From a virus, in IMG/VR virus record IMGVR_UViG_3300047564_001006, positions 1-43,926 of that record: DNA of 43,926 bases. One strand, given 5' to 3'. The number at the start of each line of letters is the position of its first letter. The stretch's first letter is position 1. The notes below the pieces were generated by a model, which was given only the letters and a program-made list of their open reading frames with translations, was not told the DNA's origin and did no database searches. The position numbers and the translations under genes were made by a program. Of the stretch, positions 233-23,000 are shown in pieces.

Positions 233-913
233 ATGAGTCAATTACTCACAATCGAGTCGGCACTCCTCAACCTTCCCTCAGTGAAGGCAGGGCTCAACAT
301 CACAGAAATCCGCAGAGTGCAGCGGTCTCTCACTAACGCTCAGAAGAGCAAGTTCACCAACACTATCAGCCTGTCCAAGTTGGTCGTGAAAGCCCACGAG
401 TGGTTCACGTCTGACGAAGGCAAGGGAGTCTTCCGTGAGGAGGGGGTGACGTGGTCCAATGAAGACTTCGGAAAGAAAGTGTTCGGGTGGCAGAAGTCTT
501 ACTTCTACAAGGTGGTGAAGGCAGGGAAGTTGGAGCAGTCCGTAGTTGACCTGTTCAACACCAAGTGTGACGAGGCAGAGGCTGAGGGTCAAGACCCGAA
601 CAGAAGCCTTGAGGGTCTGTTGAAATTTGCCCGTGCTACGGCTGAGGCAGAGACCAACACTGCTGAGGGCAGCGGAGAGGGTGACGGAGAAGGCAGCGGA
701 GAAGGTGAAGAAGGAGGCAGTGAGGCAGCAGTGGAGGTACGTGTACCCACAATCTTGACCCTGTCGTTCAAGGCTGCTGACCTTCAGTTAGGACGTAACG
801 TCTCAATCCGTGTGGACGTGAACGGGCAGGTAACCACGGGCAACACTGAGGAGGAAATTAACCTTGCCCTTCAGTTTTTGGCACAGGCAATTGCAGGGAG
901 GTCTGCTAACTAA
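233..913 (+). CDS. Unrecognised early protein with acidic Gly/Glu linker
   Basis: This 226-residue soluble protein is the first gene of the early block, directly behind a good promoter. I do not recognise the family. The first ~125 residues look helical and folded, with many Lys and aromatic residues. About residues 143-163 are an acidic, low-complexity run of Gly, Glu, Ser and Asp, typical of a flexible linker. The last ~60 residues alternate hydrophobic and polar residues like a small beta domain. There are no membrane segments. The first-expressed position suggests a host-takeover or regulatory role, but nothing in the sequence proves that. The ATG at 233 follows an AT-rich leader without a Shine-Dalgarno sequence. 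Confidence 0.8.
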   Translation: MSQLLTIESALLNLPSVKAGLNITEIRRVQRSLTNAQKSKFTNTISLSKLVVKAHEWFTSDEGKGVFREEGVTWSNEDFGKKVFGWQKSYFYKVVKAGKLEQSVVDLFNTKCDEAEAEGQDPNRSLEGLLKFARATAEAETNTAEGSGEGDGEGSGEGEEGGSEAAVEVRVPTILTLSFKAADLQLGRNVSIRVDVNGQVTTGNTEEEINLALQFLAQAIAGRSAN

Positions 914-969: not shown

Positions 970-1917
970 ATGAGCAATTTTAATTCAATCTTAGAAGGTA
1001 TCAAGTATACCAACACAGGCGAAAGAGCCCGTGGCGAAGTTCAGCCCTATCACAGGAAGCCGAACCCCTTGAAGAAGAACAAGAGCCCTTTCGCTGCTGA
1101 TGTTATCGGGCTGAAGCCTGTAGAACGCAGCAGGGCTATCCTATCGACACAGGACGGACACGAGTCCAAGTTCACTATCGGCATCGAGGTGGAGAAGAAT
1201 AGTCTGCACAGGGGTGCGGTGAAGGAGTATCCGCTATTTGCAGGTTTTGAACGTGACGGGTCTTGTGGCTATGAGGCAGTGACCCACATTCTTCCCCTGC
1301 TGCCCGAGGGCAAGTGGAGGAACAAGGTGTTTGACCTGTTCGTACAGGCTGAGAAGATTATCGACTCACGCTATAGCCCTGCTGACCGCAGGTGCGGTGG
1401 TCACGTCACTGTGTCCTGTAAGGGTATGAGTTCAGATGACCTGCGTAAGGCTCTGCGTCCCTTCTGTGGCATCATCTACGCCCTGTTCGAGAAGAGGCTT
1501 CAGAACACGTACTGCAACGCCAATATCCGTATGGAGGCACGTAACGCAGGGTGGAACGGCACACGCTATCAGATAGCCCTTGAGAAGTCCTTCGGGGACG
1601 GGTCTGAGGGTATCGAGTTCAGAATCGTGAGCAAGTTCGAGTCCGTGAAGCAGACCATCCGCAGGTACGAACTTTTCTACGCCCTGTTGGACACTGCGGT
1701 GAACGCACCTAACACGTCCCACGAGACCTTCCTCAAGCGTATCCGTCCTATCGTGGTGTCTATGTATGGGGGCAGCGAGGAGGAGGCTGACCTCAGAATC
1801 GAGAAGGCACGTCACTACCGCAGGTTCATCTTGCAGGGTAAACTGAGCAGCCTCATTGCGAGGGCAGTTGACCCTCATCAGAGCCACCTGTCGTGGTGGG
1901 ACGCAGCAGCCCTGTAA
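970..1917 (+). CDS. Amidoligase-like protein (COOH-NH2 ligase, glutamine-synthetase fold)
   Basis: A 315-residue protein that fits the putative amidoligase family (PF12224-like), whose members are predicted to form amide or peptide bonds using ATP. Visible motifs are GIEVE (71-75), the usual opening acidic strand; RDGSCGYE (95-102); GGHVTVS (143-149), matching the G-x-H-V-x-V strand; and an EFRI segment near residue 218, resembling the later metal/ATP-binding strand. The first ~55 residues are basic and probably disordered. The same early block encodes a glutamine amidotransferase-cyclotransferase fusion (4830-5951). Both enzyme types are known neighbours of amidoligases in phages and bacteria, which supports the call. 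The substrate is unknown; peptides, cell-wall fragments and modified nucleotides are all possible. Confidence 0.6.
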   Translation: MSNFNSILEGIKYTNTGERARGEVQPYHRKPNPLKKNKSPFAADVIGLKPVERSRAILSTQDGHESKFTIGIEVEKNSLHRGAVKEYPLFAGFERDGSCGYEAVTHILPLLPEGKWRNKVFDLFVQAEKIIDSRYSPADRRCGGHVTVSCKGMSSDDLRKALRPFCGIIYALFEKRLQNTYCNANIRMEARNAGWNGTRYQIALEKSFGDGSEGIEFRIVSKFESVKQTIRRYELFYALLDTAVNAPNTSHETFLKRIRPIVVSMYGGSEEEADLRIEKARHYRRFILQGKLSSLIARAVDPHQSHLSWWDAAAL

Positions 1918-1924
1918 CGGGGCA

Positions 1925-1958
1925 GGGAGGGTGGTGTCTTCAAGGACACTACCTTCCC
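1925..1958 (+). repeat. Palindrome copy 2, 14-bp hairpin joined to a ribozyme
   Basis: The core GTGTCTTCAAGGACAC is at 1934-1949. The stem extends outward to 1925 and 1958 through unique flanks (GGGAGGGTG left, TACCTTCCC right) that pair with two G-U wobbles. Pairing in unrelated flanks argues for an RNA hairpin. The 3' arm ends at 1958 and hammerhead stem III starts at 1959. Confidence 0.85.
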
Positions 1959-2009
1959 CCTGTCCACGGGTGTGTACCCGTGCTGACGAGTCCGAGAGGA
2001 CGAAACAGG
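1959..2009 (+). ncRNA. Type III hammerhead ribozyme 1
   Basis: All three helices and the catalytic core are present. Stem III is CCTGT (1959-1963) with ACAGG (2005-2009). The cleavage triplet is GTC (1962-1964), with the cut expected after C1964. Stem I is CACGGGT (1965-1971) with ACCCGTG (1976-1982), loop GTGT. The core strand is CTGACGA (1983-1989). Stem II is GTCC/GGAC (1990-1993 with 1998-2001), loop GAGA, followed by GAAA (2002-2005). The open helix is stem III, so it is type III. Cutting would separate the amidoligase message from the next gene, leaving a 74-nt leader before the ATG at 2039. Confidence 0.92.
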
Positions 2010-2038
2010 CAACCAAGCAACCAAGTTAAACCTAGTAT

Positions 2039-2500
2039 ATGAGCACTACATCATTAATCCGCAGCCTCAGACGGGCTGCCAACATCGAGTCAGACCTATC
2101 TGACATTGCACTAATCGAGGGGCTGAGTAATAGCCTCAAGGACATCGAGGACTACCTACAGGGACACGGGCACTCCGACAACCCACAGGACTACCTAACT
2201 GCTGAGTTTAGGGCTGCCCTGCGGTCATTGGAGACCCTGTGGCAGCAGGTATACCACGAGAGCCAACAGGAGGAGGAGAGCGAGGCTGACAAGGTCATTG
2301 CCACCCATTGGGTTATCGGCAAGTATGATTGCACTCAGAGACTTTACATTTCGGCATTCGCTGACGAGGAGAACGCCCGTGAGTGGGAGCACACGGCTAA
2401 ACGTAAGTACGACTCAGTCGTGTTCACGGACAGGGTCTCTGTGCTCAAGCACCTGTGCGACAGGCACTACTATGACTATTCACTTTACCTAACATTCTAA
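2039..2500 (+). CDS. Unrecognised early protein, 153 aa
   Basis: I do not recognise this small acidic protein. It has a helical N-terminal half with a Glu-rich run around residues 76-83. The C-terminal half contains a W-V-I-G-K-Y-D strand and ends in an aromatic, His/Tyr-rich tail (HYYDYSLYLTF). It is the first gene downstream of ribozyme 1, so its message would carry a ribozyme-made 5' end. The ATG is preceded by an AT-rich leader (AACCAAGTTAAACCTAGTAT) very like that of the gene downstream of ribozyme 2, with no Shine-Dalgarno sequence. Another gene follows after 10 nt. Confidence 0.75.
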   Translation: MSTTSLIRSLRRAANIESDLSDIALIEGLSNSLKDIEDYLQGHGHSDNPQDYLTAEFRAALRSLETLWQQVYHESQQEEESEADKVIATHWVIGKYDCTQRLYISAFADEENAREWEHTAKRKYDSVVFTDRVSVLKHLCDRHYYDYSLYLTF

Positions 2501-2510
2501 ATTCTAAACA

Positions 2511-2858
2511 ATGAAAAAAACCTATCATCACATTGTGTTCCTACAGGGACACGAGGCAGACGAGACTCTGCAAATCATCAACGAGAACGGCTGCGAGGCA
2601 GCCGTGCACCACCTCCTTCAGTGGGACAACGGGGAGTATTACGAACAGAGAGACACCCCATCCGCAGGTTCGGGTGACTACACCTACACCTCCGAGTGCG
2701 GGGACTACCTGCTCACGTACAACCCCCGCATAGGCTATGCGGGTCTCGAGTACGTGGAGACAGACGGACCATACCCCAAAGACCCCGAGGAAAAGTATTG
2801 GGATGCCTGTCAGACGTGGGCTGAGAGACGTAGCCACGAAGACGAGGACCTGTGGTGA
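2511..2858 (+). CDS. Unrecognised early protein, 115 aa
   Basis: A very acidic, Tyr-rich, soluble protein of 115 residues and no recognised family. It starts 10 nt after the previous gene at the sequence AAACAATGAAAAAAACC, and probably shares its transcript. The C-terminus (about 100-115) is charged, ending EDEDLW. Its composition resembles other small phage early proteins that bind host proteins, but no function can be read from the sequence. Confidence 0.75.
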   Translation: MKKTYHHIVFLQGHEADETLQIINENGCEAAVHHLLQWDNGEYYEQRDTPSAGSGDYTYTSECGDYLLTYNPRIGYAGLEYVETDGPYPKDPEEKYWDACQTWAERRSHEDEDLW

Positions 2859-2868
2859 AAAAAATAAA

Positions 2869-2900
2869 TTTGCATATGTTAAATCTATGTACTACCTTTG
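2869..2900 (+). promoter_or_regulatory. Bacteroidota-type early promoter
   Basis: -33 TTTG (2869-2872), 20-nt spacer, -7 TACCTTTG (2893-2900), followed by TACC. Spacing and sequence match those at 4764-4795 and 8344-8375. It starts a transcript just upstream of the ATG at 2918, so an upstream in-frame ATG at 2852 is not the real start. Confidence 0.8.
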
Positions 2901-2917
2901 TACCAAATCTATACGAT

Positions 2918-3247
2918 ATGAAATACAGAATCAATCAGAGCAGCGTGGATGAGTCCTTTGACATCATCACTGAGGACGGAGGCGTAGCCGTCTTCTATCA
3001 CAACCAAGAGAACTACGTGACGCATTACTATCAGAGAAGCCTCAGCGAGTGCAACCCTGCGAACTACGTGTGGGACGAACTATCAGAGGGCAAAATCTAC
3101 ATCAAGGATTGGGAGGGTGACCCGAAGGTCAGCGAGGTAGTCGAGGACGCATTGGGATGGCTTATGTTCCCTGCACCTGCCGAGGGGTGGACACAGGACG
3201 ATAGCCTGTGGGCTGAGTTTTTCGACAAGGAAGGAGGGGCTGAGTAA
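2918..3247 (+). CDS. Unrecognised early protein, 109 aa
   Basis: Soluble acidic protein with no recognised family. It contains a DIITEDGGVAVFYHN beta-like segment near residues 15-29 and many Trp/Tyr residues. I chose the ATG at 2918 because the promoter -7 box at 2893-2900 lies inside the longer open frame starting at 2852. Its stop overlaps the next start (TAATG), so the two genes are likely translationally coupled. Confidence 0.75.
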   Translation: MKYRINQSSVDESFDIITEDGGVAVFYHNQENYVTHYYQRSLSECNPANYVWDELSEGKIYIKDWEGDPKVSEVVEDALGWLMFPAPAEGWTQDDSLWAEFFDKEGGAE

Positions 3248-3507
3248 TGACTGCCGAGTACACCCCACGTAACTACAAGTTCACAGGTGACGAATACATT
3301 GCGAACTGCATACCTGCGGACGCTATGCCTCACTTCTTCAATCACGGACGGGAGGGTCGGATGCTATACATCAAGAACCATCCGTGGGAGGTGGGTGCTT
3401 ATGACAAGTACACCGAGACAATGTACGACATCAGTAACGCACAGGCTTACGAGTGGTACGAGAAACAAACAGGGCTCACCCTGTGCATACAGGTGGGCTG
3501 CAACTAA
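3247..3507 (+). CDS. Unrecognised early protein, 86 aa
   Basis: Small aromatic-rich soluble protein that overlaps the preceding stop by one base (TAATG). I do not recognise it. Length and composition resemble its neighbours (Tyr/Trp-rich, no membrane segment). It is the last gene before the second hairpin-ribozyme module, so ribozyme cleavage would define the 3' end of its message. Confidence 0.7.
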   Translation: MTAEYTPRNYKFTGDEYIANCIPADAMPHFFNHGREGRMLYIKNHPWEVGAYDKYTETMYDISNAQAYEWYEKQTGLTLCIQVGCN

Positions 3508-3524
3508 TTCCACGTGGTAGTGGA

Positions 3525-3552
3525 GGGGTGGTGTCTTCAAAGACACTGCCCC
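3525..3552 (+). repeat. Palindrome copy 3, hairpin joined to ribozyme 2
   Basis: The core GTGTCTTCAAAGACAC is at 3531-3546. Unique flanks GGGGTG (3525-3530) and TGCCCC (3547-3552) extend the stem with two G-U pairs. The last base, C3552, is also the first base of hammerhead stem III. The two structures therefore abut, as at 1958/1959. Confidence 0.82.
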
Positions 3553-3602
3553 ACGTCAGGGAGTGAGTGCTCCCTCTGAGGAGTCCAAAAGGACGAAACG
3601 TG
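3552..3602 (+). ncRNA. Type III hammerhead ribozyme 2
   Basis: Stem III is CACGT (3552-3556) with ACGTG (3598-3602). The cleavage triplet is GTC, with the cut expected after C3557. Stem I is AGGGAG (3558-3563) with CTCCCT (3570-3575), loop TGAGTG. The core is CTGAGGA (3576-3582). Stem II is GTCC/GGAC (3583-3586 with 3591-3594), loop AAAA, followed by GAAA (3595-3598). Compared with ribozyme 1, stems I and III have different sequences but keep full pairing, while core and stem II are conserved. This is strong covariation evidence for a real ribozyme. Confidence 0.92.
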
Positions 3603-3625
3603 TAACCAATTTAAAAACCAAGTAT

Positions 3626-3877
3626 ATGATAACGCAAAAAACAATCACCGAGTATGGCTTCGAAGAAATCGAGGACTACTTCTACTACATCATCGAGAGT
3701 CGTATGAACGGGCAGCACAAACAGGCACGTCAGTTATTCGCTGACCTGTCCGAGCAGCAGCAGCAAGACTTCTTCAACTACATCGAAATCTTCTTCGCCT
3801 ATGAGGTGGAGTATGACGAGAACGGAGACCGCATCGACCCTGTAACTGAAATCAAAACCTATCTTAAAATCAAATAA
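3626..3877 (+). CDS. Unrecognised small acidic protein, 83 aa
   Basis: First gene after ribozyme 2. The open frame extends upstream to 3563, but those codons would be ribozyme stems. The ATG at 3626 follows the AT-rich leader AACCAATTTAAAAACCAAGTAT shared with the gene after ribozyme 1, so I place the start there. The protein is helical and rich in Glu, Tyr and Phe, with a run of three Gln residues near the middle. No family is recognised. Confidence 0.75.
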   Translation: MITQKTITEYGFEEIEDYFYYIIESRMNGQHKQARQLFADLSEQQQQDFFNYIEIFFAYEVEYDENGDRIDPVTEIKTYLKIK

Positions 3878-3878
3878 A

Positions 3879-3962
3879 ATGACAATCTTTTTCGCAACAA
3901 TCATCACACTGCTGACCCTGCTTACAGGCGTGGCACTATCATCAACCAAACAAACCAAGTAA
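3879..3962 (+). CDS. Putative single-pass membrane micropeptide, 27 aa
   Basis: A very short frame with ATG 1 nt after the previous stop and TAA 4 nt before the next gene's ATG. It fills the gap exactly. It starts MTIFFATIITLLTLL and ends in a basic tail (TKQTK). Residues 2-21 are almost all hydrophobic, as in a one-helix membrane peptide. Tight packing and composition support it; there is no homology evidence. It could act on the host membrane. Confidence 0.5.
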   Translation: MTIFFATIITLLTLLTGVALSSTKQTK

Positions 3963-3966
3963 CACA

Positions 3967-4611
3967 ATGAACAAAACAACTGAACAGACCTGTTACGCAT
4001 TCGAGCGTGGCAGCGTAAAGCGTGTAGGCAACACCTTCACGGACGGCAAATGCCTGTATCTTTTTGACAACCTCATCGCAGAGCACAGACAGGATGGTCT
4101 GTACATCAGCAACGCAGGATGGCAGAGCAAGACCACCAAGGAGAGACTGAACGGGCTGACAGGGGTCAGCATCAGTCAGAGAAAAGGCAAGTGGTATCTG
4201 AATGGAAAGGAGTGGGATGGTCAGTGGACAAGGGTCAACACGAACCAACCCCCGGCAGTGGACGAGAAAGCAGCAGGGGAGTCGTGGAATTACACCAAGG
4301 GGTGGAAGTCAACTGACGGATGGAGAGGCTACGAGCAGCCAACCTACGCAGTCTGCGGTGCTAACGACACAGGTATGTGGGATGACTCACCTTGCAGGTC
4401 AGACGTGGCTGAGGCTGAATTGAAGGCAGCGAAGGCAGCCCTGAGCAAGGCAGGTATACCAACTAAGTTAATGACCTGCGAGTCGAGCAACGTGTTCTGC
4501 GTCCACCACTACCTCATCGTGCGTCCCAAGGACAAGCAGAAGGCTGACGAGACTATCGAGGCACACCTCAAGACTACCGACACCTCATTGTTGTACCCCT
4601 GTAAAAACTAA
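3967..4611 (+). CDS. Unrecognised early protein, 214 aa
   Basis: Soluble protein of unknown family. The first ~85 residues are strand-rich (Gly, Trp, Tyr), with G-K-W-Y-L-N-G-K-E-W resembling small beta-sheet repeats. A Trp-rich linker follows (about 105-125). The C-terminal ~75 residues are helical then strand-like, with HHYLIVRPKDKQKADE. Several Cys residues are scattered without a zinc-finger spacing. It is encoded 4 nt after the micropeptide stop, in one operon with its neighbours. Confidence 0.75.
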   Translation: MNKTTEQTCYAFERGSVKRVGNTFTDGKCLYLFDNLIAEHRQDGLYISNAGWQSKTTKERLNGLTGVSISQRKGKWYLNGKEWDGQWTRVNTNQPPAVDEKAAGESWNYTKGWKSTDGWRGYEQPTYAVCGANDTGMWDDSPCRSDVAEAELKAAKAALSKAGIPTKLMTCESSNVFCVHHYLIVRPKDKQKADETIEAHLKTTDTSLLYPCKN

Positions 4612-4615
4612 GGCT

Positions 4616-4771
4616 ATGAGAGAGAACCAATATACCTTCCGAGTTTACCACGGGACTGAACTGCTCTGCTTCATTGTCGCCCACACCAAGTGGGAGGCAG
4701 TGGAGAGAGCAATGTCTCAGACAGGATGGCGGTATGACCGCAGAAAATTAATCGCAAAAAAAGTTTGGTAA
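4616..4771 (+). CDS. Small basic protein, 51 aa
   Basis: A 52-codon frame starting 4 nt after the previous stop and ending inside the next promoter. It starts MRENQYTFRVYHGTELL and ends RRKLIAKKVW. The pattern (strand, helix WEAVERAM, basic tail) is protein-like, and the gap is otherwise empty. The promoter for the gene at 4830 overlaps its last codons (4764-4771), an economical arrangement. Family unknown. Confidence 0.6.
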   Translation: MRENQYTFRVYHGTELLCFIVAHTKWEAVERAMSQTGWRYDRRKLIAKKVW

Positions 4772-4795
4772 TGTTCACAGAATGTATTACCTTTG
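4764..4795 (+). promoter_or_regulatory. Bacteroidota-type early promoter
   Basis: -33 TTTG (4764-4767), 20-nt spacer, -7 TACCTTTG (4788-4795). Transcription would start around 4802, giving a short leader rich in CTAATCTAATCAAAT before the ATG at 4830. Box sequence and spacing equal those of the 2869 promoter. Confidence 0.82.
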
Positions 4796-4829
4796 TACAA
4801 AATCAGTCTAACTAATCTAATCAAATCGT

Positions 4830-5951
4830 ATGTGCATCATCATCGTAAAGCAACGCAACATCGAGATTCCTTCAGAGACTCTCAAAAATTCATCACGCCT
4901 GAACCCCCACGGATTGGGGGTCGTATGGCTCGACACCTTCGAGGTGTCTTATCACAAGTCCAAGGATTGGCAGGTGCTTGACACTGCCCGTCCTTACATC
5001 GCTCACTTCCGCTACGCCACTGTCGGCAAGGTCGGTCTCGACAATACCCACCCGTTCAAGTGTGGTCCGACAAGCAACGAGTTCTTAATGATGAACGGGA
5101 CTATCCACGGGCTCGGGGACAAGAACAAGTGCGACTCAAAAGTATTGGCTGAGTCCTTGGAGAATGTGCCACGCCACAAGTGGAAGAGAGAATTGGAGAA
5201 GCACAGGCTTGTTCGGTTCGTCACTATCAACACCCGCACCCGCACGTTCCAAATCTACAATCGTGACCTATGGACCTTCAAGGATGGGGTGTGGTACTCG
5301 AAGGACAACGTCCTTCAGGACAACCTTGTCGCAGTGTACGGCACACTGAAGAAGGGGCACGGCAACTACTACCGCTATCTCACTGACTCAAAGTTAGTGG
5401 GGTCAGGCAAGACCAAGGACAAGTATCCACTGCTGATTCAAGGTCTGCCGTACCTGTTGGACGAGAAGGGTGTGGGTCACAACGTGAAGGTGGACGTGTT
5501 CAAGGTCAGCGACACGGTCCTCGGCAAGTTAGACCAACTTGAGGGTCACCCTCGGTGGTACTGCCGTAAGCAGGTTCAGATTCAGATGAGCAAGAACAAG
5601 GTCGTGACTGCTTGGATATACTTCAACCCTCAGACAAAGCGGTCAGCGACAGACAGGATGCACGAGTCCTACGAAGCATTCAGTCAGACGTACCGCAAAC
5701 CTGCCCGTGTACAAGAGCCGACAGACTTCTCGAAGCCAACGTGGTCACCATCTTACAGGCAGTTAGAGTTCAGTTCTTTTGATGACTACTACGCACAACT
5801 GAGTGGGGTCGAGGTGGAGGATGAGCCCGTGGTTGACACACCATACTGCACCTCCTGCTATCGTGACCTTGAGTACGATGGGTTCAACAACTACTGCTGC
5901 ACGGGATGTAACGAGTGGTACACCCAACAGGACGTGGACAATTTACTATAG
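4830..5951 (+). CDS. Class II glutamine amidotransferase / gamma-glutamylcyclotransferase fusion with zinc ribbon
   Basis: A 373-residue three-part enzyme. Residues 1-160 look like an Ntn-type glutamine amidotransferase. Cys2 follows Met directly and would be the nucleophile after Met removal. HFRYATVG (59-66) and MMNGTIHG (87-94) match the conserved H-x-R-x-AT and NG motifs. Residues 165-285 resemble the AIG2/GGCT cyclotransferase fold: VAVYGTLKKG (167-176) is the substrate loop and LDQLEGHPRWY includes the likely catalytic Glu238. The C-terminus is a zinc ribbon (C340, C343, C356/C357, C360). Together with the amidoligase at 970 it suggests a pathway that makes and releases glutamyl- or amide-linked groups. 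The substrate is unknown. It has its own promoter. Confidence 0.78.
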   Translation: MCIIIVKQRNIEIPSETLKNSSRLNPHGLGVVWLDTFEVSYHKSKDWQVLDTARPYIAHFRYATVGKVGLDNTHPFKCGPTSNEFLMMNGTIHGLGDKNKCDSKVLAESLENVPRHKWKRELEKHRLVRFVTINTRTRTFQIYNRDLWTFKDGVWYSKDNVLQDNLVAVYGTLKKGHGNYYRYLTDSKLVGSGKTKDKYPLLIQGLPYLLDEKGVGHNVKVDVFKVSDTVLGKLDQLEGHPRWYCRKQVQIQMSKNKVVTAWIYFNPQTKRSATDRMHESYEAFSQTYRKPARVQEPTDFSKPTWSPSYRQLEFSSFDDYYAQLSGVEVEDEPVVDTPYCTSCYRDLEYDGFNNYCCTGCNEWYTQQDVDNLL

Positions 5952-8343: not shown

Positions 8344-8375
8344 TTTGGACGACACGTGTACATTCGCTATCTTTG
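8344..8375 (+). promoter_or_regulatory. Bacteroidota-type early promoter for the recombination genes
   Basis: -33 TTTG (8344-8347), 20-nt spacer, -7 TATCTTTG (8368-8375). The leader TTAATCAAATCTAATCTAATCAAT precedes the ATG at 8405 and nearly repeats the leader of the 4830 gene. It probably drives genes 8405-10743 up to the terminator at 10767. Confidence 0.82.
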
Positions 8376-13387: not shown

Positions 13388-14862
13388 TGGACTATAAAGG
13401 AATGAACATTGTAGACCGCATCCCTGCGTACTGCAACCGAATGATGCTTGAGCAATGCAAAGTCTTGTATAAGATTGTGACTCAAACTAAAGAGGTTAAG
13501 GTACGCAGTGGTCGGAACTACATAACAAACCACGTCCCCAAATACCCAACTCAACCCGAGGTGGTTGAGAAATTAAAAAACAGTATCACGTACTATCAAA
13601 ATTTACATAATCACGAAATGAATAATCAAATCGAATTAAGGGACTATCAAAAGAACATAGTCTCACGGGCAACAGAAATCATCGGGGAACACGGGTTCGT
13701 GTACCTTGCGATGGAAGTCAGAACAGGGAAGACTCTGACAAGCCTCAGCATCTGTGACAACCTTCCAAACGTGGAGCACGTATTGTTCCTGACCAAGAAG
13801 AAGGCAATTGATTCTATCACTGCCGACTCAGATAAACTATGCCCATCCTACGTTCTATTCGTTATGAACTACGAGAGCATCCATAAACTACCCAAAGTAA
13901 AGTGGGATGTAATCGTATGCGATGAGGCTCATAGTATGGGTGCGTTCCCAAAGCCAAGCCTCCGGGCTATGCAGGTGAGAGACCTTATCAGAGAGAACGG
14001 GAGCAGGGTAATCCTTCTATCAGGTACACCAACGCCTGAGTCTTACTCTCAGATGTATCATCAAATCTGTGGCATACCAAACAATCCGTTTAAGAAGTAT
14101 TCAAACTTTTACAGGTTTGCCGATGACTATGTCAAGAAGAGTCAGAAGAAAATAAACGGTGTATTGATAAACGACTACTCTCACGGATACCCTACCATCC
14201 TCGATGCAATGGTCCCCTATACCATCAGGTGGTCGCAGCAGGAATCAGGCTTCGTGGTAAAGACTACAGAGGAAATACTCCGGGTCCAACTTGAGGACAA
14301 GACACTTGGCATAATCAAGAAACTTCAGAAGGACTTGGTAATTGAAGGAAAGGGAGAGACCATATTGGCAGACACCCCGGTAAAACTTATGAGCAAACTT
14401 CACCAACTGTACAGTGGCACGGTAAAGTTTGAGAGTGGTAACTCAATGGTGCTCGACCTGAGCAAGGCTAAGTTCATAAAGGAAAGGTTCAAGTATCAGA
14501 AGATTGGAATCTTCTACAAGTTCAAGGAAGAACTGAACGCATTGCAGCAGGTATTTGGAGACGAACTGACCACCGAACTCAGTGTCTTTGAAGACACCAA
14601 CAAGCACATAGCCCTTCAGATTGTATCAGGACGTGAAGGCATATCATTGAAGAAGGCTGACTGCCTTGTCTACTACAACATCGACTTCAGTGCGACAAGT
14701 TATTGGCAGAGCCGGGACCGGATGACGACCAAGGACAGGCTTGAGAATAAAATATATTGGGTGTTCGCACACGGTGGAATAGAGGACCTTATCTACAAAG
14801 CAGTGTCGAAAAAAAAGGACTACACTGTATCACATTTTAAAAGAGATTTGTTAATATTGTAG
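13384..14862 (+). CDS. SF2 helicase / SNF2-like ATPase
   Basis: A 492-residue DNA-dependent ATPase. After a ~95-residue N-terminal part come the Q-like motif E-L-R-D-Y-Q-K (about 81-87), Walker A M-E-V-R-T-G-K-T (110-117), D-E-A-H (180-183), L-S-G-T-P-T-P-E-S (motif III), and in the second RecA-like domain S-G-R-E-G-I-S-L (motif V) and Q-S-R-D-R-M (motif VI). It probably remodels or unwinds DNA during phage replication or recombination. It overlaps the primase-helicase stop by 4 nt. Palindrome copy 7 lies within it (S-V-F-E-D-T). Confidence 0.88.
   Translation: MMDYKGMNIVDRIPAYCNRMMLEQCKVLYKIVTQTKEVKVRSGRNYITNHVPKYPTQPEVVEKLKNSITYYQNLHNHEMNNQIELRDYQKNIVSRATEIIGEHGFVYLAMEVRTGKTLTSLSICDNLPNVEHVLFLTKKKAIDSITADSDKLCPSYVLFVMNYESIHKLPKVKWDVIVCDEAHSMGAFPKPSLRAMQVRDLIRENGSRVILLSGTPTPESYSQMYHQICGIPNNPFKKYSNFYRFADDYVKKSQKKINGVLINDYSHGYPTILDAMVPYTIRWSQQESGFVVKTTEEILRVQLEDKTLGIIKKLQKDLVIEGKGETILADTPVKLMSKLHQLYSGTVKFESGNSMVLDLSKAKFIKERFKYQKIGIFYKFKEELNALQQVFGDELTTELSVFEDTNKHIALQIVSGREGISLKKADCLVYYNIDFSATSYWQSRDRMTTKDRLENKIYWVFAHGGIEDLIYKAVSKKKDYTVSHFKRDLLIL
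14582..14597 (+). repeat. Palindrome copy 7 (inside the SF2 helicase)
   Basis: GTGTCTTTGAAGACAC read in frame as V-F-E-D-T, between helicase motifs where the residues look unconstrained. A/C flanks do not extend the stem. Confidence 0.85.
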
Positions 14863-16610: not shown

Positions 16611-17068
16611 CTCCACACAGTACCACCCTTCTTTTTACCACCACCCCATATGGTTCCACCTTTTTGTTCTTCTTTGTTCCATACAGATTCTCCCTCTTCA
16701 CCTTTCTTTTTCTTCTTCTCTTTGCTCCACACTGTACCTCCTGTGCCCCCTTGGTAACCATACATCAGGTCTTTCTCACGTTGAAGTTCTTCTCGTTCTA
16801 ATCTTTCTTCTTCACGTCTTGCTTCCTCGAAATCATAGAGACTTCCTCCCGGACCATAAAGGTCATCGTACATATCAGGGAAGTATCGCTTCATATCCTC
16901 CTTGCTCATAGGTCTTTCAGCAGGAGTTTTTGCTTCTTCTTGAGTTGGTCTGTATGACTTGCTGATACCAAGCATATCGTATACTGCATTCTCATCAAAG
17001 CCATCCTGAACTCCGTTGTATACTCCAATGAAAGGGTCTACCTGAGTCTTCCTCTTCCATCCCCTTCT
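16598..17068 (-). CDS. C-terminal end of the giant virion protein in a shifted frame
   Basis: Open frame of about 156 residues, in-frame with an internal Met at 16975 but clearly continuing upstream of it. Its first codons after 17060 read K-T-Q-V-D-P-F-I-G-V-Y-N-G-V-Q-D-G-F-D, which looks like real protein joined to the giant protein's R-K-M-K-K-G. The last 55 residues carry four GGTVW-like repeats (GGTVW, GESVW, GGTIW, GGTVW) separated by Lys/Glu-rich spacers. Skipping one base at the G4 run 17061-17064 fuses it to the upstream frame, giving about 3,576 residues in total. See the finding for causes. Confidence 0.65.
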   Translation of the reverse strand, partial: RRGWKRKTQVDPFIGVYNGVQDGFDENAVYDMLGISKSYRPTQEEAKTPAERPMSKEDMKRYFPDMYDDLYGPGGSLYDFEEARREEERLEREELQREKDLMYGYQGGTGGTVWSKEKKKKKGEEGESVWNKEEQKGGTIWGGGKKKGGTVWSEKE

Positions 17069-20000
17069 TCATCTTTCTAAATACCTGCATATATGGGTTC
17101 ACCACATTGTCAGCACCACGTTTGGTCTTGTCTCCCTCAATGTATGCCAAAGTCGTCTCAACCGCAGCCCCAATCAGTGGGATAGATTCAATCAGGTTAA
17201 GACCCAACATAGCCTTACCCATCTGCTTTAGAACCTCCTCACGGTCATCGTCCTCTCCCTTTATCAGTTTGGCAATGTTTGCAGTACCAACGAACAATGC
17301 GTTGGCTACACCAAGGTTTATCACAAAACCACGGATATCACGGGTGCTTGGCATTTGTCCGTTCTTCAATGCACGAAACATATTTGTCTGTGCCTGAAGA
17401 ACTTTGTTTATCTGCAAGAACGTAGTGCTACCAAACATTGTGAAGGCACGAGCCAACTCGCTACTGTTCTGCTGCAATGATATCTTCTCAGTGCCACGTC
17501 TTGTTTGCTGAGTGGCGTTGTAGTTGTTGAATGCTTCCAAAGCCTCAGCCTGAGTCATACCGTTGGCAATGTCCCGGTTGTAGTTAATCATATACCCCAT
17601 CACACCAAGGATATCACCAAGCACAGTCGGTCCTGCTCCTCCTGTTTTGAATGCCCGGACTGCACGTGCCCATATATCTGTACGCTTATCTATGGATGAG
17701 AATACATTGGAACCGGACTCAAGACCATACACATCACCCTCGATACCTTTCAGCAAACGGTCTCTTACATTGGCAGACATACCATATGCCTTACGTATTT
17801 GAGATGGCATAGTCGCCATAACCTTTGCACCGTCAACCATAAACATCATCAGGTCAACAGGACCTTTGATTAACCCGGGAACCTTTGAGCCCGGAGGGAA
17901 ATAACTGTAGTCCTCAAATGCATTGATAAACGAGGTAGCCTGTTTGATTATCTGAACCGCTTTGAACGCAAGGGCAAACCCGGTGAACTTGGTCATCAAC
18001 TTTCCAAGAGCCGTCTGCTCTTCTTTCTGACCTGCGTTTGGAGTGATGGCAAAGTTTACTGAACGCTTTACCACGGTCTTCAATCCTGACTCCTCAAGTA
18101 GCACATTGAATGCAGGACTTTGGAAGATTGCGTTGAGGTCTTTGACACCCTCTGCATAAGCCTTATACTTCTCCATCGTTACGAAGTGGCTCTCAACCAC
18201 ATCAGAGAAGTCGTAGTTCAACTCAATAAGACCCGCTACATCGGTACGTTCCTTCAATGCCGGGGCAGTCTCTGCGTTAAAGATTCCATTGAAGTCACCA
18301 TCCTCCAACAGTTTAGAACTCACCTTCTGAGACTGAGTAATCGTTGGAAAGTAGTTAGGTATGTACCCAAGATTCACATCGTTTACGTGAGAGTAAACAT
18401 TGTTTACAGATTCGTAGTAGTCATTGCTGAAGTAGTCAACCAACTTGTTGGCAAACTCAATAGGCTCGAGACCCACGATATCTTTAATCTTGTCTATCTG
18501 AGCAGCATCCCATCCCATTTGCACCAACTTCTGACGCTGCACATCATTGAGCGACAGTGCGTATATGCGGAGAAGTTTGTCTGCATTGTATACCTGCGTT
18601 CTGCCATTGATAGTAAACTCGTGGATACCTGTTTGCAGCATATTGCGTATCTGCTTGTACCCCTTTGTAATACCCGGGATACTGTTTGCCATTGCATCCA
18701 AGTTCGCCATCTCTGAGAAGTATCCAACCTTAGCCTTCTCATCCATTCTATTCAGAGGCTTGTATACATTGTCTGTAAAGAATGTCAACCCCTTTGCCGT
18801 GTTGTCAAACAGGTTCATAAAAGAACCCAAGTGAAGCAGACGCTTACGTGCAAAATCCTTTATGCCTGTGATGGTAGTGTAATCCCAACGGGAAACCAAC
18901 TGCTTAAAACCTGACCATATCTTCCCCTGTTGGAACGCTCTGCGTATAGCAGCACGGTCCTGAACAAGTTCGTTACGGCTCTTCGGTCTTACAACTGTCT
19001 CAATCTTTGATACCTTAAAAATATTTGTAGTGCCATCTAAGTAAAATCTGAAATTAGATTGACCATCTGTAAAACTTATAAACTCTCCATTAGGGTCTAT
19101 AAAGTCTACAGTTACTTCTCCCTTATAGTTGTACTGCCCTGAAGTATCCTCAATTACTACTTTATCTCCAACCTGCAATGCACCAACCTCACTGTCAGAT
19201 AATGTTTTTTCAACCTCTTCCGATACGAACAAATCCGGATGTAACTCAGCAACCTGTGCATTAGCCTGTTCCCTCATTGCTGCCATACGCATAGCACGAA
19301 CCTCTCTCCGGGTCTTGAGTTTCATTATGGATTCAGCACGGGCATCTTCAAGTTCCTCAAGTAATTGCTGAACATCCTCCAACTCCATATTCATCAGGTC
19401 GCCAAAGGTGTCATACGCATATGCCTTATTGAGGAGAGCCTGTTCCTGTACAGTAAGTTTCTCTCCACGGTTCTGCTTATCAATAGCCTCGCTGATAGAA
19501 CCATCCGCATCAGCCTGTGCCAATTCATTTGCTAAGTTCACGATGAACTGAGTGTCATCGCTGACAATCGCTCTCAGGATTGGCTTAACCTCAGCAAAGA
19601 AAGCCTGTCCCTCAGGGTCAAGACCACGACTCCTACGCTTCCCGGTAGTGGTCATTGCAGCCTTTGCCTTCTTGTTGACCAACTCAATCATCTGCTTTAT
19701 CACAGACTTCTTCATCTTTGCTCTCTGCTGCTCAACAATCTTCATCACCTTCTCGGTGTCTGCAAGGATGCTGCTCTCAGTAGCGTTTGATATGATTGAA
19801 ATCAGTTTGTTAATCTGAGCCTGAGAATACATATCAGACTTAGGCAGGACAGAACGGATGAGGTTCTTCACTGCAATCTTAGCCTGTTGCAATTCTTTCG
19901 CACCAATCTTACGCTGACGCAGGTTGTTTCTGATAGCACTTATCTGACGGGTAACATTGGTGTTCGCCTGTGTTCCGATAGTCCTGTCAAAGGCACTAAT

Positions 20001-23000
20001 CAATTCCATCTGAACAGTATCAGACTGTGCTTGGAAGATAGGATTAGCCTTCAGTAACTCAATAGCCTTCTCACGAATCTCTCCCCACGTCTTGGTCTGC
20101 TCTCTCCGGATGCCACCACGTGGACCCATATGGGCAAACCTCTGTAGTTCAGCACGTACCTCTGTAAATAACTGATACCCTTTTTGCACACCCCCCTCTA
20201 TGTTTGCGAACTCACGTGGCAAATCTGTTGTAATATCAACCTGAACTACGAGTGCATTGTTGATGTCACTCGCACGGAAGCCACGGTTTAGCAGCACTTG
20301 TTTGATGGCAGCGTCAGAGAATCCATTGGCACGTGCCTGTTGGATGATTGACTGCATAGACTGCGTGTTGCTGAACATAGCCTCAGGATTCTTCAGTTGC
20401 TTCTTCTGAACCTCTGTAAGTTTTATCTCCTTGCCACTGAAGATATCTGCCAAAGCAGTACCTATGAATTGGTCAAGTGTAAGATTCTGAATCTCCTCTT
20501 CAGTGAGGTCCTTCGACATCTTGAAAGACTCCTTGATGAATCTCCACATACCAAGCAACCACTCCTTGAATTTAGATTTGATTGCTGCATTCACCATCAC
20601 TTCACCCTTGTTGCCAATCAAGATAGCCATCGTCTCATTGATGGCTCTTGCCCGGTCTCCCGGATACTTCTTCATCTGAGCCTCAAATATCTGCTTGACC
20701 TTTTCGTCATTGGCAATACCTTCCTCAACCAACTCTACACCACGGTTATATATCTGCTTCCCTTTCTCTGAGGTTTGCAGATAGTCGGTCCAAACGTGAC
20801 CAAATTCGTGGATGGTTGTATTGAACAGAGCAGACTCACTATTGTGTACGTCAGGGTTTATGTAGATATCTCCATTGACAGTTACGCCATAGATAACTTG
20901 GTCGCCCTTCATATACATCTCGGTCCCAACCTGAGCCATCACATTATCAAATGAAACCTTATCAGTTGATATGGTCACTCCCGGGAATGTTATGTTTAGG
21001 AAGTTTGCAAGTTTAGTTGCATTTGAAATATCACCCTGTGCTACTGCACCAACAAAATCAGTCTGAGTTAATCCATTTTGTACCGCAACCGAAGTGGTCA
21101 ATATAGACTCTACAGAAGATGGTTGGAACTCTTTATCGCCAATATCACTTGTTTCAACTGTCCAAAACTCTTCAGGGAGAATCCCCTGCTTCTGTTCCGC
21201 AAACGATATCTCTTCGTAAACCTTTCCAACAAGAGCCTCTGCCTCCTCAAGTTTGCCCTGCTCTCTAAGATTAGCAGCCTCTTGACGCAGAGCCTCAACT
21301 CTTTCGTTTACTCCCGAGAAGTTTACGTATGAGTTCTGCCCACGGGTCTCTGATGTCATTGCCTGACGTGCCAATTTTGAGTACATACGTGCGTGGACGT
21401 TCCAAGCATTCTCCTCTCCAATAGCACCAAATGAATTGCCCAACTCTGAATGACCAAAGAAATCGTGGACCGCACGGAACATATCGTTTACCAATAAAGG
21501 CTCACCGTTCACATCAAAGAATCCTGATTCACGTAGCAGTACATTTCTATCACGCTGCTCAGGAGTAATCTTATCATCTCCAAATCCGGACTCAGTTGAG
21601 AATATTTTCATACGCTTATTCTCACGCAAATCCTCAATCATCTCACGTGAGTTACCATATGGCTCATTGTTGTTAATCTCAACCACATACCCTGCATCAA
21701 GTATAAACTTGTATTGCTCAAGAGTCTCACGAGCCATAGCCTCATATGCTTTTCTTACATCAGGTGCAGTTGGATTATCTGCCATCGCTACGAAGGCATC
21801 TGAGATTCTTTTTGCTCTTTCTTTGTCGATGCTTCTTGTACCGTAGAACCGAGGACGAGGTCGCCCAAAGGCTGCTTCGTGATATCTATCCGCAATTTCC
21901 GCAGCCTCCGGGAGTGGCTGATTGAAGAGTCGGTTGCCGGGCTTAATAATTTTTTTTCCATCTCTTATAGGTTTTACAAACTTTGATTCTGCTTTTATCA
22001 ATCCTTTCAAAGCAAGATTGTATGCTTCAGGATACGCTTTAACGAGGGCTACAGGTTCGTCCAATATCCCAATTGGTCTACCCGCTAATCCATACTGATA
22101 GTTTGGATGATTGAAGTCTCCATTCGCAGTGTTTAGAATGCTTGGATTCAACACGTCAATACCAACTATAGCAACAATACTTCTGCTCGGTATGTCTGCA
22201 ATGGTTGATTCAGTAATTGTGTTTACCACTTCAGCCAAATTCAAGAGTTCATATCTCTTGCTTTCCTTTATATCCTTTACCTTCTGTGTTGCAGGTATGC
22301 CAATGATAGCACGAGCAACTAATGAATTAGGCGTGGGTTTAGAGGTTTTCTTTTTTTGTCCCGGCAGATTAGGTTTGCCATAACCAATTACATTGATTAG
22401 GTCCTTACGTGCATTAAGGTTTTCTATCTGAGTGAAAATCTCAGGAGCAAGTAGTTGCTCGATAGACTCAAGATTATTGTCTTGAATTAGATTCAAAACA
22501 TTTTGATAACCACTTGCTTGTGTCAAGTAGTTCTTCCTTGTGTTTTCAGTCTTGGCAGTTTCTGCTCTTTTTGTAAGTGATTCAATATCCTTTTTCAACT
22601 GAGACTGAAGAACACTCAATGCTCTTCTCCGGTTAGCCTCAGGGAACTCCAATATATTATCAGCAAGAACCCGGGCAGTAGCCTCGTTAGATAGGATAGA
22701 ACCCTCACCCATCTTTACTACCATCATAGGCACAAGACCATTATACTCCGGATTGTTTTTCCAAAACTCTTCAAATGTTGGCTTGTTAGCCTTATATATT
22801 TTTTTGGCTTTTTGTAAAGCCTGTTGTGCGTTCTTCTCAGAGGTATACGCCCACGCTGAGTTTTCGTTGGTATAGTTGAACCCAATGCCACCAAACAAAC
22901 CGCCAATCGTTCTGCCTGTGTTTTGATTCGTAACCTCTCCTGTAGTAAGTTGGTCGGATATGGTGAACACAACAGGGACCCCGTTGACAATCTGTATGCC

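Follow-up and report, generated by a model that had tools for sequence, protein, structure and literature searches.

The window analysed here is the whole 43,926-nt stretch of virus record IMGVR_UViG_3300047564_001006, a fragment whose relatives are about 60 kb long; near-identical DNA was not found among phage records. Two open reading frames are considered, one encoding an amidoligase-like protein (P0001, 970–1917) and the other a three-domain fusion (P0002, 4830–5951, 373 residues), both confirmed at these coordinates (Table 1). They share a strand with the replication genes and the structural genes occupy the opposite one, a layout consistent with the putative "early" label that the original prediction gave the operon. 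The data fit a phage of Bacteroidota-type bacteria. A scan of bacterial genomes yielded just two relatives; their contigs belong to a Cytophagales MAG and a Flavobacteriales MAG, which agrees with such a host, but may be binned phage DNA.

Table 1. Features of the amidoligase–fusion locus (positions in the window)
Feature	Position	Strand	Basis or remark
Conserved upstream ORF without known function	233..913	+	70 of 83 distinct loci with both genes have a homologue immediately before the amidoligase gene
Divergent glutamine-synthetase-fold amidoligase P0001, 315 aa	970..1917	+	AF2, fold matches, residues, hhalign
Perfect 15-bp hairpin with recurrent palindrome GTGTCTTNAAGGACAC	1925..1958	+	Fold z -5.3; follows amidoligase stop
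Type III hammerhead ribozyme	1957..2011	+	RF00008 40.5 bits (below gathering), E 1.7e-5; predicted cleavage after 1964
Second Bacteroidota-type promoter match, within operon	2869..2900	+	Motif scan
Same hairpin, before second hammerhead	3525..3552	+	Folding
Second type III hammerhead ribozyme	3550..3604	+	RF00008 42.3 bits (below gathering), E 5.3e-6; predicted cleavage after 3557
Kyano_Gp96/PHROG 554-like ORF between the pair	3967..4611	+	PF23790 E 7.8e-8
Bacteroidota-type promoter match TTTG-N20-TANNTTTG	4764..4795	+	34 nt upstream of fusion start codon
P0002 class II (Ntn) glutamine amidotransferase-type domain, residues 1–163	4830..5318	+	C2, R61, T64, N89, G90, D102
P0002 gamma-glutamylamine cyclotransferase (GGACT/AIG2) domain, residues 164–288	5319..5693	+	PF06094, fold, E238
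P0002 linker, residues 289–336	5694..5837	+	pLDDT about 60–68; gap-rich in alignment
P0002 C-terminal zinc ribbon and stop, CxxC (340, 343) and CxxC (357, 360)	5838..5951	+	Cysteines, pLDDT

P0001 has no Pfam or PHROG match. A sequence profile search of the PDB was of no use either, and similarity was seen only by comparing folds or by aligning profile with profile. The AlphaFold2 model (pLDDT 94.5, pTM 0.92) matches best glutamine synthetase (GS) and the carboxylate-amine ligase YbdK. All 22 PDB matches returned by Foldseek at E ≤ 1e-3 belong to the GS superfamily, and the fold matches include GS, YbdK, GmaS, GshA and PafA. The best superposition by VIA-align was obtained with YbdK (1r8g; Z 9.4, r.m.s.d. 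of 4.1 over 197 residues). A conserved N-terminal extension of about 65 residues (R21, Y27, H28, D44) precedes a G-x-E-x-E motif formed by G71, E73 and E75. Residues E73, E75, E94, D96, S98, E102, G143-G144-H145, E216, R218 and R232 are invariant in the 89 sequences aligned, among which E73, E75, E102, H145, E216 and R218 are the putative active-site residues, with roles assigned by alignment. Both the GS-type fold, present in the predicted structure, and the conserved acidic, His and Arg residues place P0001 in the GS superfamily, and the amidoligase-like enzyme originally predicted at this position is upheld by the model, Foldseek, VIA-align and the profile–profile match.

Assignment to PF12224, the profile proposed for checking P0001, did not hold: with hmmscan at the Pfam gathering cut-off, neither P0001 nor any of 57 relatives matched it, and a PF12224 search over the window record returned nothing. 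P0001 is therefore better named a divergent GS-fold amidoligase than a PF12224 member. Profile–profile comparison by hhalign with eight phage PF12224-type amidoligases gave a probability of 94.4 (E 8.8e-8); the comparison with the single amidoligase of phage C75C1 was not significant. The GxHxH motif differs between the two groups. Both histidines are present in 8/8 canonical phage PF12224 enzymes, whereas the P0001 family retains the first (89/89) and has T, N, S or C at the second position in all 89 (T147 in P0001). Since this second His is absent, the chemistry of P0001 may differ from that of PF12224 enzymes.

P0002 consists of a class II GATase, a GGACT domain and a C-terminal zinc ribbon, in the order originally described as GATase II–GGCT–zinc ribbon. 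In the GATase domain, C2, R61, T64, N89, G90 and D102 are invariant in 93/93 relatives, so that the class II residue set (Cys after Met, Arg, oxyanion Asn-Gly, Asp) is complete throughout and Cys2, on which the prediction hinged, was never lost. Its fold superimposes onto those of the GlmS glutaminase (1xff, Z 11.6) and EgtC (4zfj, Z 11.5), with further matches to GFAT, PurF and AsnB. Of the two profile checks proposed for P0002, that for GATase_4 stayed below threshold for the protein itself (18.6 bits vs 23), although 39 of 47 relatives do match this profile, the best of them with E 2.3e-6, and that for the cyclotransferase was clear: PF06094 matches residues 167–278 with E 2.8e-22 and 80 bits (gathering 22.8). 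No ammonia-using synthase domain was found within the P0002 polypeptide.

The middle domain superimposes onto human and mouse GGACT (3jub/1vkb) with Z 17.7–17.8 and 32/30% identity, ahead of GGCT and ChaC, making GGACT its nearest solved relative. Like human GGACT (3jub/3juc), it has the YGTLK motif and the catalytic-Glu motif, E238 being aligned with the Glu of LDDFE and invariant in 93/93 relatives; the human enzyme differs in being a single domain, and its substrate is gamma-glutamyl-epsilon-lysine. This relationship points to gamma-glutamyl-amine substrates, as judged from the modelled fold, and would narrow the substrate search. The fold search covered residues up to about 290, and the ribbon was called from its two CxxC knuckles, the cysteines of which are kept in 91/93 relatives, with pLDDT above 90 over most of the ribbon.

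The two genes are linked. In all 59 loci fetched with the fusion, and in 44 of the 45 fetched with the amidoligase, the amidoligase gene precedes the fusion gene in the same orientation. Both genes occur in 83 distinct loci; the commonest intervening gene is present in only 51 of these while the pair itself persists, and the Kyano_Gp96-like ORF, found in 30, is not conserved with the pair. Within one phage clade, such linkage is partly due to shared descent. The ORFs between the two genes received no function from Pfam and PHROG scans, in line with the first description of the neighbours. The P0001 family is an amidoligase family invisible to Pfam and co-conserved with the fusion in many viral contigs. 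The folds, the conserved residues and the linkage kept in many phages all support the functional pairing originally suggested.

A cassette of amidoligase, GATase and GGCT was proposed in 2008–2009, with phage predictions reportedly made by Iyer et al. 2009, as relayed by other papers. The co-occurrence noted in the original prediction is already in print (PMC2588565; PMC5498523). Such cassettes are known from phiEco32/LUZ24/RIO-1-like podoviruses, where they have been read as serving peptidoglycan modification and where amidoligase, class II GATase and GGCT likewise lie among DNA metabolism and replication genes (PMC5498523). There, two amidoligases and an ATP-grasp enzyme are encoded and all genes are separate; the amidoligases of UFV-P2 are PF12224 and PF14395 (gene table, PMC3890496). 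The window, in contrast, has one divergent amidoligase, and its GATase, GGACT and zinc ribbon form a single protein; an ATP-grasp enzyme was found neither among the ORFs scanned in this fragment nor among the genes annotated in MW202828, a complete relative.

A close arrangement is that of the unrelated phage C75C1 (OQ984151), in which a PF12224 amidoligase lies upstream of a GATase–GGACT fusion 43% identical to P0002; it differs by a canonical amidoligase (PF12224, E 3.5e-30) and by a fusion without zinc ribbon. The chemistry can therefore do without the ribbon. In the Arthrobacter phages Salgado and Ottawa, three separate genes for GGACT, amidoligase and GATase follow one another directly in that order, with a canonical PF12224 enzyme and a longer GATase. 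Linked but unfused sets also occur in other unrelated phages, namely in Vibrio 1.293.O (GGCT, Ntn, amidoligase and ATP-grasp), in Bacillus, Geobacillus and Blautia phages (amidoligase and GGACT, with no annotated GATase in the flanks examined) and in a gut phage (amidoligase and GATase as separate genes); Pfam scans of the unfused cassettes examined revealed no zinc ribbon. Given the C75C1 pair and these unfused sets, P0001/P0002 is a variant of a known cassette, not a new kind, and the ribbon and fusion do seem unusual, as first claimed. Cassettes of this sort have turned up repeatedly in phages that infect Proteobacteria, Actinobacteria and Firmicutes, to which Bacteroidota-type hosts can now be added; no demonstration of their function was found in the literature examined. 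Consisting only of P0001 and the fusion P0002, the version described here is simple to express and assay.

In ergothioneine biosynthesis, the GS-superfamily ligase EgtA adds a gamma-Glu that EgtC, a GATase-fold Ntn hydrolase, removes. That pathway is defined, acts on a small molecule and has no cyclotransferase, but EgtC matches the GATase domain of P0002 in fold. The reading tentatively favoured, with somewhat less than an even chance, is that the pair likewise writes and erases amides, of gamma-glutamyl type, on a host amine. From the observed folds, catalytic residues and linkage, we infer the following reactions. P0001 would use ATP to turn a carboxylate, most likely the gamma-carboxyl of glutamate, into an acyl phosphate and couple it to an amine. 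P0002 would act against the resulting amide bond or against by-products: the Ntn domain would cleave gamma-glutamyl amides, whether glutamine or, like EgtC, the adduct itself, and the GGACT domain would strip amines of their gamma-glutamyl groups with release of 5-oxoproline. The extent to which a host amine is gamma-glutamylated during infection would depend on the balance between the two proteins. The likeliest substrate, at a guess, would be an envelope or cell-wall amine, to which, or to a partner, the ribbon may hold the eraser. The intact ExE, E102, H145 and ExR of the GS fold argue for this writing and erasing, as does the intact glutamine/gamma-glutamyl site of a GATase domain that resembles glutaminases as well as EgtC, a gamma-glutamyl hydrolase. 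So do the kinship of the middle domain to GGACT, the persistence of the pair and the related sets in C75C1 and other unrelated phages. The missing second His of GxHxH, the shared descent behind part of the linkage and the ribbonless C75C1 fusion weigh against it.

It is just as possible that the GATase domain is no more than a glutaminase supplying the ligase with ammonia. P0001 would then amidate a carboxylate, for example on peptidoglycan stem peptides in the manner of MurT/GatD or AsnB-type enzymes, with an altered wall and superinfection exclusion as the outcome, and GGACT would only clear side products. The invariant glutaminase-type C2, R61, N89, G90 and D102, the GlmS glutaminase among the top matches and the peptidoglycan reading of related cassettes (PMC5498523) are consistent with this route, which is nonetheless unlikely: the fusion partner of the GATase is the cyclotransferase, not the ligase, and the Bacillus, Geobacillus and Blautia sets pair amidoligase with GGACT alone as far as their annotated flanks go.

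Less probable again is a switch for host takeover, in which the ribbon would guide the eraser to ribosome, RNA polymerase or nucleic acid and glutamyl tags would be placed on a host protein and taken off again. The four-cysteine ribbon kept after a variable linker and the location on the replication-gene strand speak for it; the amidoligase has no ribbon, nor does the C75C1 fusion, none was seen in Pfam scans of the unfused cassettes examined, and the ribbon may be a mere dimerisation or stability element. Still more doubtful is a self-contained, reversible gamma-glutamylation of a host macromolecule, written by the ligase and erased by the ribbon-guided fusion through its two domains that would cleave gamma-glutamyl bonds, as a new kind of viral protein or envelope tagging.

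Auxiliary metabolism in support of phage growth, by a gamma-glutamyl cycle or by recycling nitrogen and compounds resembling glutathione, has a poorer chance than these. Phage-ZRK32, which encodes GATase, amidoligase, glutathione synthase and GGCT, reportedly stimulates the growth of its host on nitrate and ammonium, but the parts of that report consulted do not link the effect to these genes by mutants (PMC10945688). Glutathione-related peptides were suggested for the amidoligase family (Iyer et al. 2008, PMC2588565), but the cyclotransferase of P0002 is of the GGACT and not the ChaC type, which argues against a glutathione substrate. A role in the making of some hypermodified bases has been proposed for amidoligases and for ATP-grasp enzymes. 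Phage DNA bases, among the targets first suggested, are a very improbable destination for amide linkages: base-hypermodification enzymes were absent from the window ORFs scanned, and the annotation of MW202828 lists ThyX only. No papers were found on amidoligase, glutamine amidotransferase and hypermodification together.

The operon also contains RNA and promoter elements. Bacteroidota-type promoter matches number five in the window, against 1.2 expected, and none of 100 shuffles reached five; E. coli-type promoter matches were no commoner than chance would give, with 20 for 21.9 expected. The palindrome GTGTCTTNAAGGACAC occurs at 11 places in the window for 0.16 expected. Both hammerheads score below the RF00008 gathering threshold of 48.5 bits and have the type III catalytic core and three helices; the first begins 40 nt past the end of the amidoligase gene. 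Covariation among relatives is strong: across 36 sequences, 99% of cells are paired and 13 of 14 pairs show two-sided changes. The presence of hammerheads in the same operon raises an RNA-processing question testable in vitro. Type III hammerheads punctuate the operon, with two in the window and, in the loci, 201 on the sense strand vs one on the other.

Pfam and PHROG searches with ORF 970-1917, which had been predicted to encode an amidoligase-like enzyme, gave no match. A profile scan with this protein yielded 57 viral loci, and the AF2 model obtained from a 57-sequence alignment had a pLDDT of 94.5 and a pTM of 0.92. Foldseek matched the model to glutamine synthetases (GS), YbdK, gamma-glutamylmethylamide synthetase and PafA, and the top VIA-align match was YbdK (Z 9.4, 197 residues, 4.1 Å). 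Although a Z just above 9 is modest taken alone, the GS-superfamily reading stands, as one superfamily accounts for all listed VIA-align matches and the active-site residues E73, E75, E102, H145, E216, R218 and R232 are invariant in the alignment (89/89 relatives). When its profile was compared with that of eight phage PF12224-type enzymes (probability 94.4, E 8.8e-8), D96xS98...E102, G144-H145 and E216-F-R218 align with the PF12224 motifs. Unlike those enzymes, the amidoligase lacks the second His of GxHxH (89/89), has an N-terminal extension with nearly invariant R21, Y27, H28 and D44, and falls below the PF12224 cut-off, which was passed by neither the window protein nor its relatives. The prediction was thus borne out for the fold and the profile similarity but not at the PF12224 cut-off, and the protein is filed as a divergent GS-superfamily member rather than a PF12224 member.

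The predicted fusion of a class II GATase and a cyclotransferase, with a putative zinc ribbon, was confirmed (ORF 4830-5951). The residues tabulated for the first two domains are invariant in 93/93 relatives, including Cys2, the loss of which would count against the prediction. The C-terminal part is, by its sequence, a putative zinc ribbon, with all four cysteines in 91/93 relatives. Fold comparison places the middle domain nearest to the gamma-glutamylamine cyclotransferase (GGACT) of mammals, with Z 17.8/17.7 at 30-32% identity, and gives far lower scores against GGCT (Z 11.2) and ChaC2 (Z 9.7).

Features of the window and of the fusion protein
Feature	Location	Strand	Details
Class II GATase domain	fusion residues 1-163	+	Cys2, Arg61, Asn89, Gly90, Asp102
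GGACT domain	fusion residues 164-288	+	YGTL, Glu238
Flexible linker, then putative zinc ribbon	C-terminal of GGACT domain in fusion	+	four ribbon cysteines
Replication/recombination genes	within 233 to about 16,600	+	Sak annealing protein, DUF3799 PDDEXK, VirE-like/PriCT primase, SNF2-type helicase, DnaA-C HTH
Bacteroidota-type promoter matches	2869-2900, 4764-4795, 8344-8375	+	TTTG-N20-TANNTTTG
Type III hammerhead ribozyme	1957-2011	+	RF00008, 40.5 bits
Type III hammerhead ribozyme	3550-3604	+	RF00008, 42.3 bits
Palindrome GTGTCTTNAAGACAC	929, 1934, 3531, 5951, 8469, 10314, 14582, 16579, 23915, 30280, 40336

The amidoligase is present in 59/59 fusion-fetched loci with at least 5 kb upstream, and the fusion in 44/45 amidoligase-fetched loci with at least 5 kb downstream, counts that are not independent because the two sets share contigs. 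Strand and order of the pair are constant, with a spacing of 44 bp to 4.9 kb. The intervening genes turn over: the commonest is found in 51/83 distinct loci, and a Kyano_Gp96-like gene in 30/83. In L056 (6888-12876), the sole full-flank viral locus with the amidoligase where the fusion gene was not found, an HNH-like ORF was seen by eye immediately after the amidoligase.

As linkage counts are inflated by shared descent, independent cases weigh more. In the separate phage C75C1 (OQ984151), a fusion without ribbon adjoins a canonical PF12224 enzyme, whereas the window has a ribbon-bearing fusion and a non-PF12224 amidoligase. Arthrobacter phages carry GGACT, amidoligase and GATase as consecutive genes; a gut phage has an amidoligase and, 80 bp downstream, a 176-residue GATase; Vibrio 1.293.O has GGCT, Ntn hydrolase, amidoligase and ATP-grasp; and in Bacillus, Geobacillus and Blautia phages the amidoligase is accompanied by GGACT. 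A Porphyromonas phage was the only one compared without a partner gene in the annotation examined. These phages, the locus counts and published cassettes uphold the predicted co-occurrence.

Iyer, Burroughs and Aravind (2008) described the amidoligase family adjoining GATase-like thiol peptidases or Aig2 cyclotransferases (PMC2588565). The seven-gene 'peptidoglycan modification cassette' of RIO-1-like phages, common to phiEco32, LUZ24 and others, includes GGCT, GATase, two amidoligases and an ATP-grasp enzyme (PMC5498523); cassette genes are listed for UFV-P2 (PMC3890496), and a PF12224/GATase pair for OM43 phages (PMC10580990). Since such sets are described in these four sources, the kind of cassette is already known, and the variant features are the ribbon-bearing fusion, the two-gene reduction and the Pfam-invisible amidoligase. 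Cassette function is hypothetical in the available text of the four accounts; nitrogen use has been linked to such genes on evidence that, in the text available, does not include gene-specific mutants (PMC10945688).

A ligase paired with a bifunctional gamma-glutamyl-amide cleaver is the most economical interpretation and is favoured tentatively, at slightly less than even confidence, as the best explanation; folds, residues and linkage are observed, the reactions are those expected from family knowledge, and the substrate is a guess. The amidoligase would make a gamma-glutamyl or similar amide, and the fusion would cleave gamma-glutamyl amides by two routes, hydrolysis by its Ntn domain or cyclization to 5-oxoproline by its GGACT domain. 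The leading alternative is that ammonia is supplied for an amidation reaction. The first domain of the fusion resembles glutaminase domains (Z 11.6) and EgtC (Z 11.5) nearly equally.

The window is a virus record of 43,926 bases. Its + strand gene block (233 to about 16,600) includes replication and recombination functions, and the - strand carries structural genes. The closest complete relative is MW202828 (60,850 bp). A Bacteroidota host is likely, judging from relatives of the fusion on Cytophagales and Flavobacteriales MAG contigs and from the promoter type at 2869 and 4764. Two of the three promoter matches are near-copies (76% identical over 49 nt). One 3,444-residue ORF (16995-27329, -) corresponds in position to an 11.6-kb ORF of MW202828 and could encode a polyvalent protein or one ejected from the virion. 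Three related loci (L008 5226-6854, L004 942-2558, L002 338-1957) have a phage GroEL gene close upstream of the amidoligase region and in the opposite orientation, and L008 also has an annotated GroES.

Immediately 5' of each window hammerhead is a strong hairpin built on GTGTCTTNAAGACAC, a palindrome present at 11 places versus 0.16 expected. Its sites are mostly at gene ends and right upstream of hammerheads; those at 14582 and 23915 are within coding sequence. A motif scan of the loci and window found 201 hammerheads on the coding strand, one on the opposite strand and none in the shuffled control, representing 111 distinct sequences (for example in L004, L023, L111 and L122). Stem I has 8-9 pairs in 188/201, the scan demanding only 4. 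Among 36 distinct sequences, 99% of cells are paired, two-sided changes occur at 13/14 pairs and covariation is 0.883 versus 0.07-0.14 for slid structures, but as the scan selected for pairing, the strand bias and extra pairs are cleaner evidence. In 92/136 loci the amidoligase stop is followed by a hammerhead at a distance of no more than 150 nt, and in 88/122 cases the palindrome lies just upstream of the hammerhead; the usual hammerhead position is about 33 nt past a stop and 20-40 nt ahead of the next start. Type III hammerheads punctuate the + strand operon of this phage clade, and likely cut a long early transcript into gene-length mRNAs, each new 3' end being capped by the hairpin, a possible means of forming or protecting transcript 3' ends. 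As clustered hammerheads flanking phage genes have been described (PMC3088659), the arrangement is of a known kind, unusually regular in this clade.
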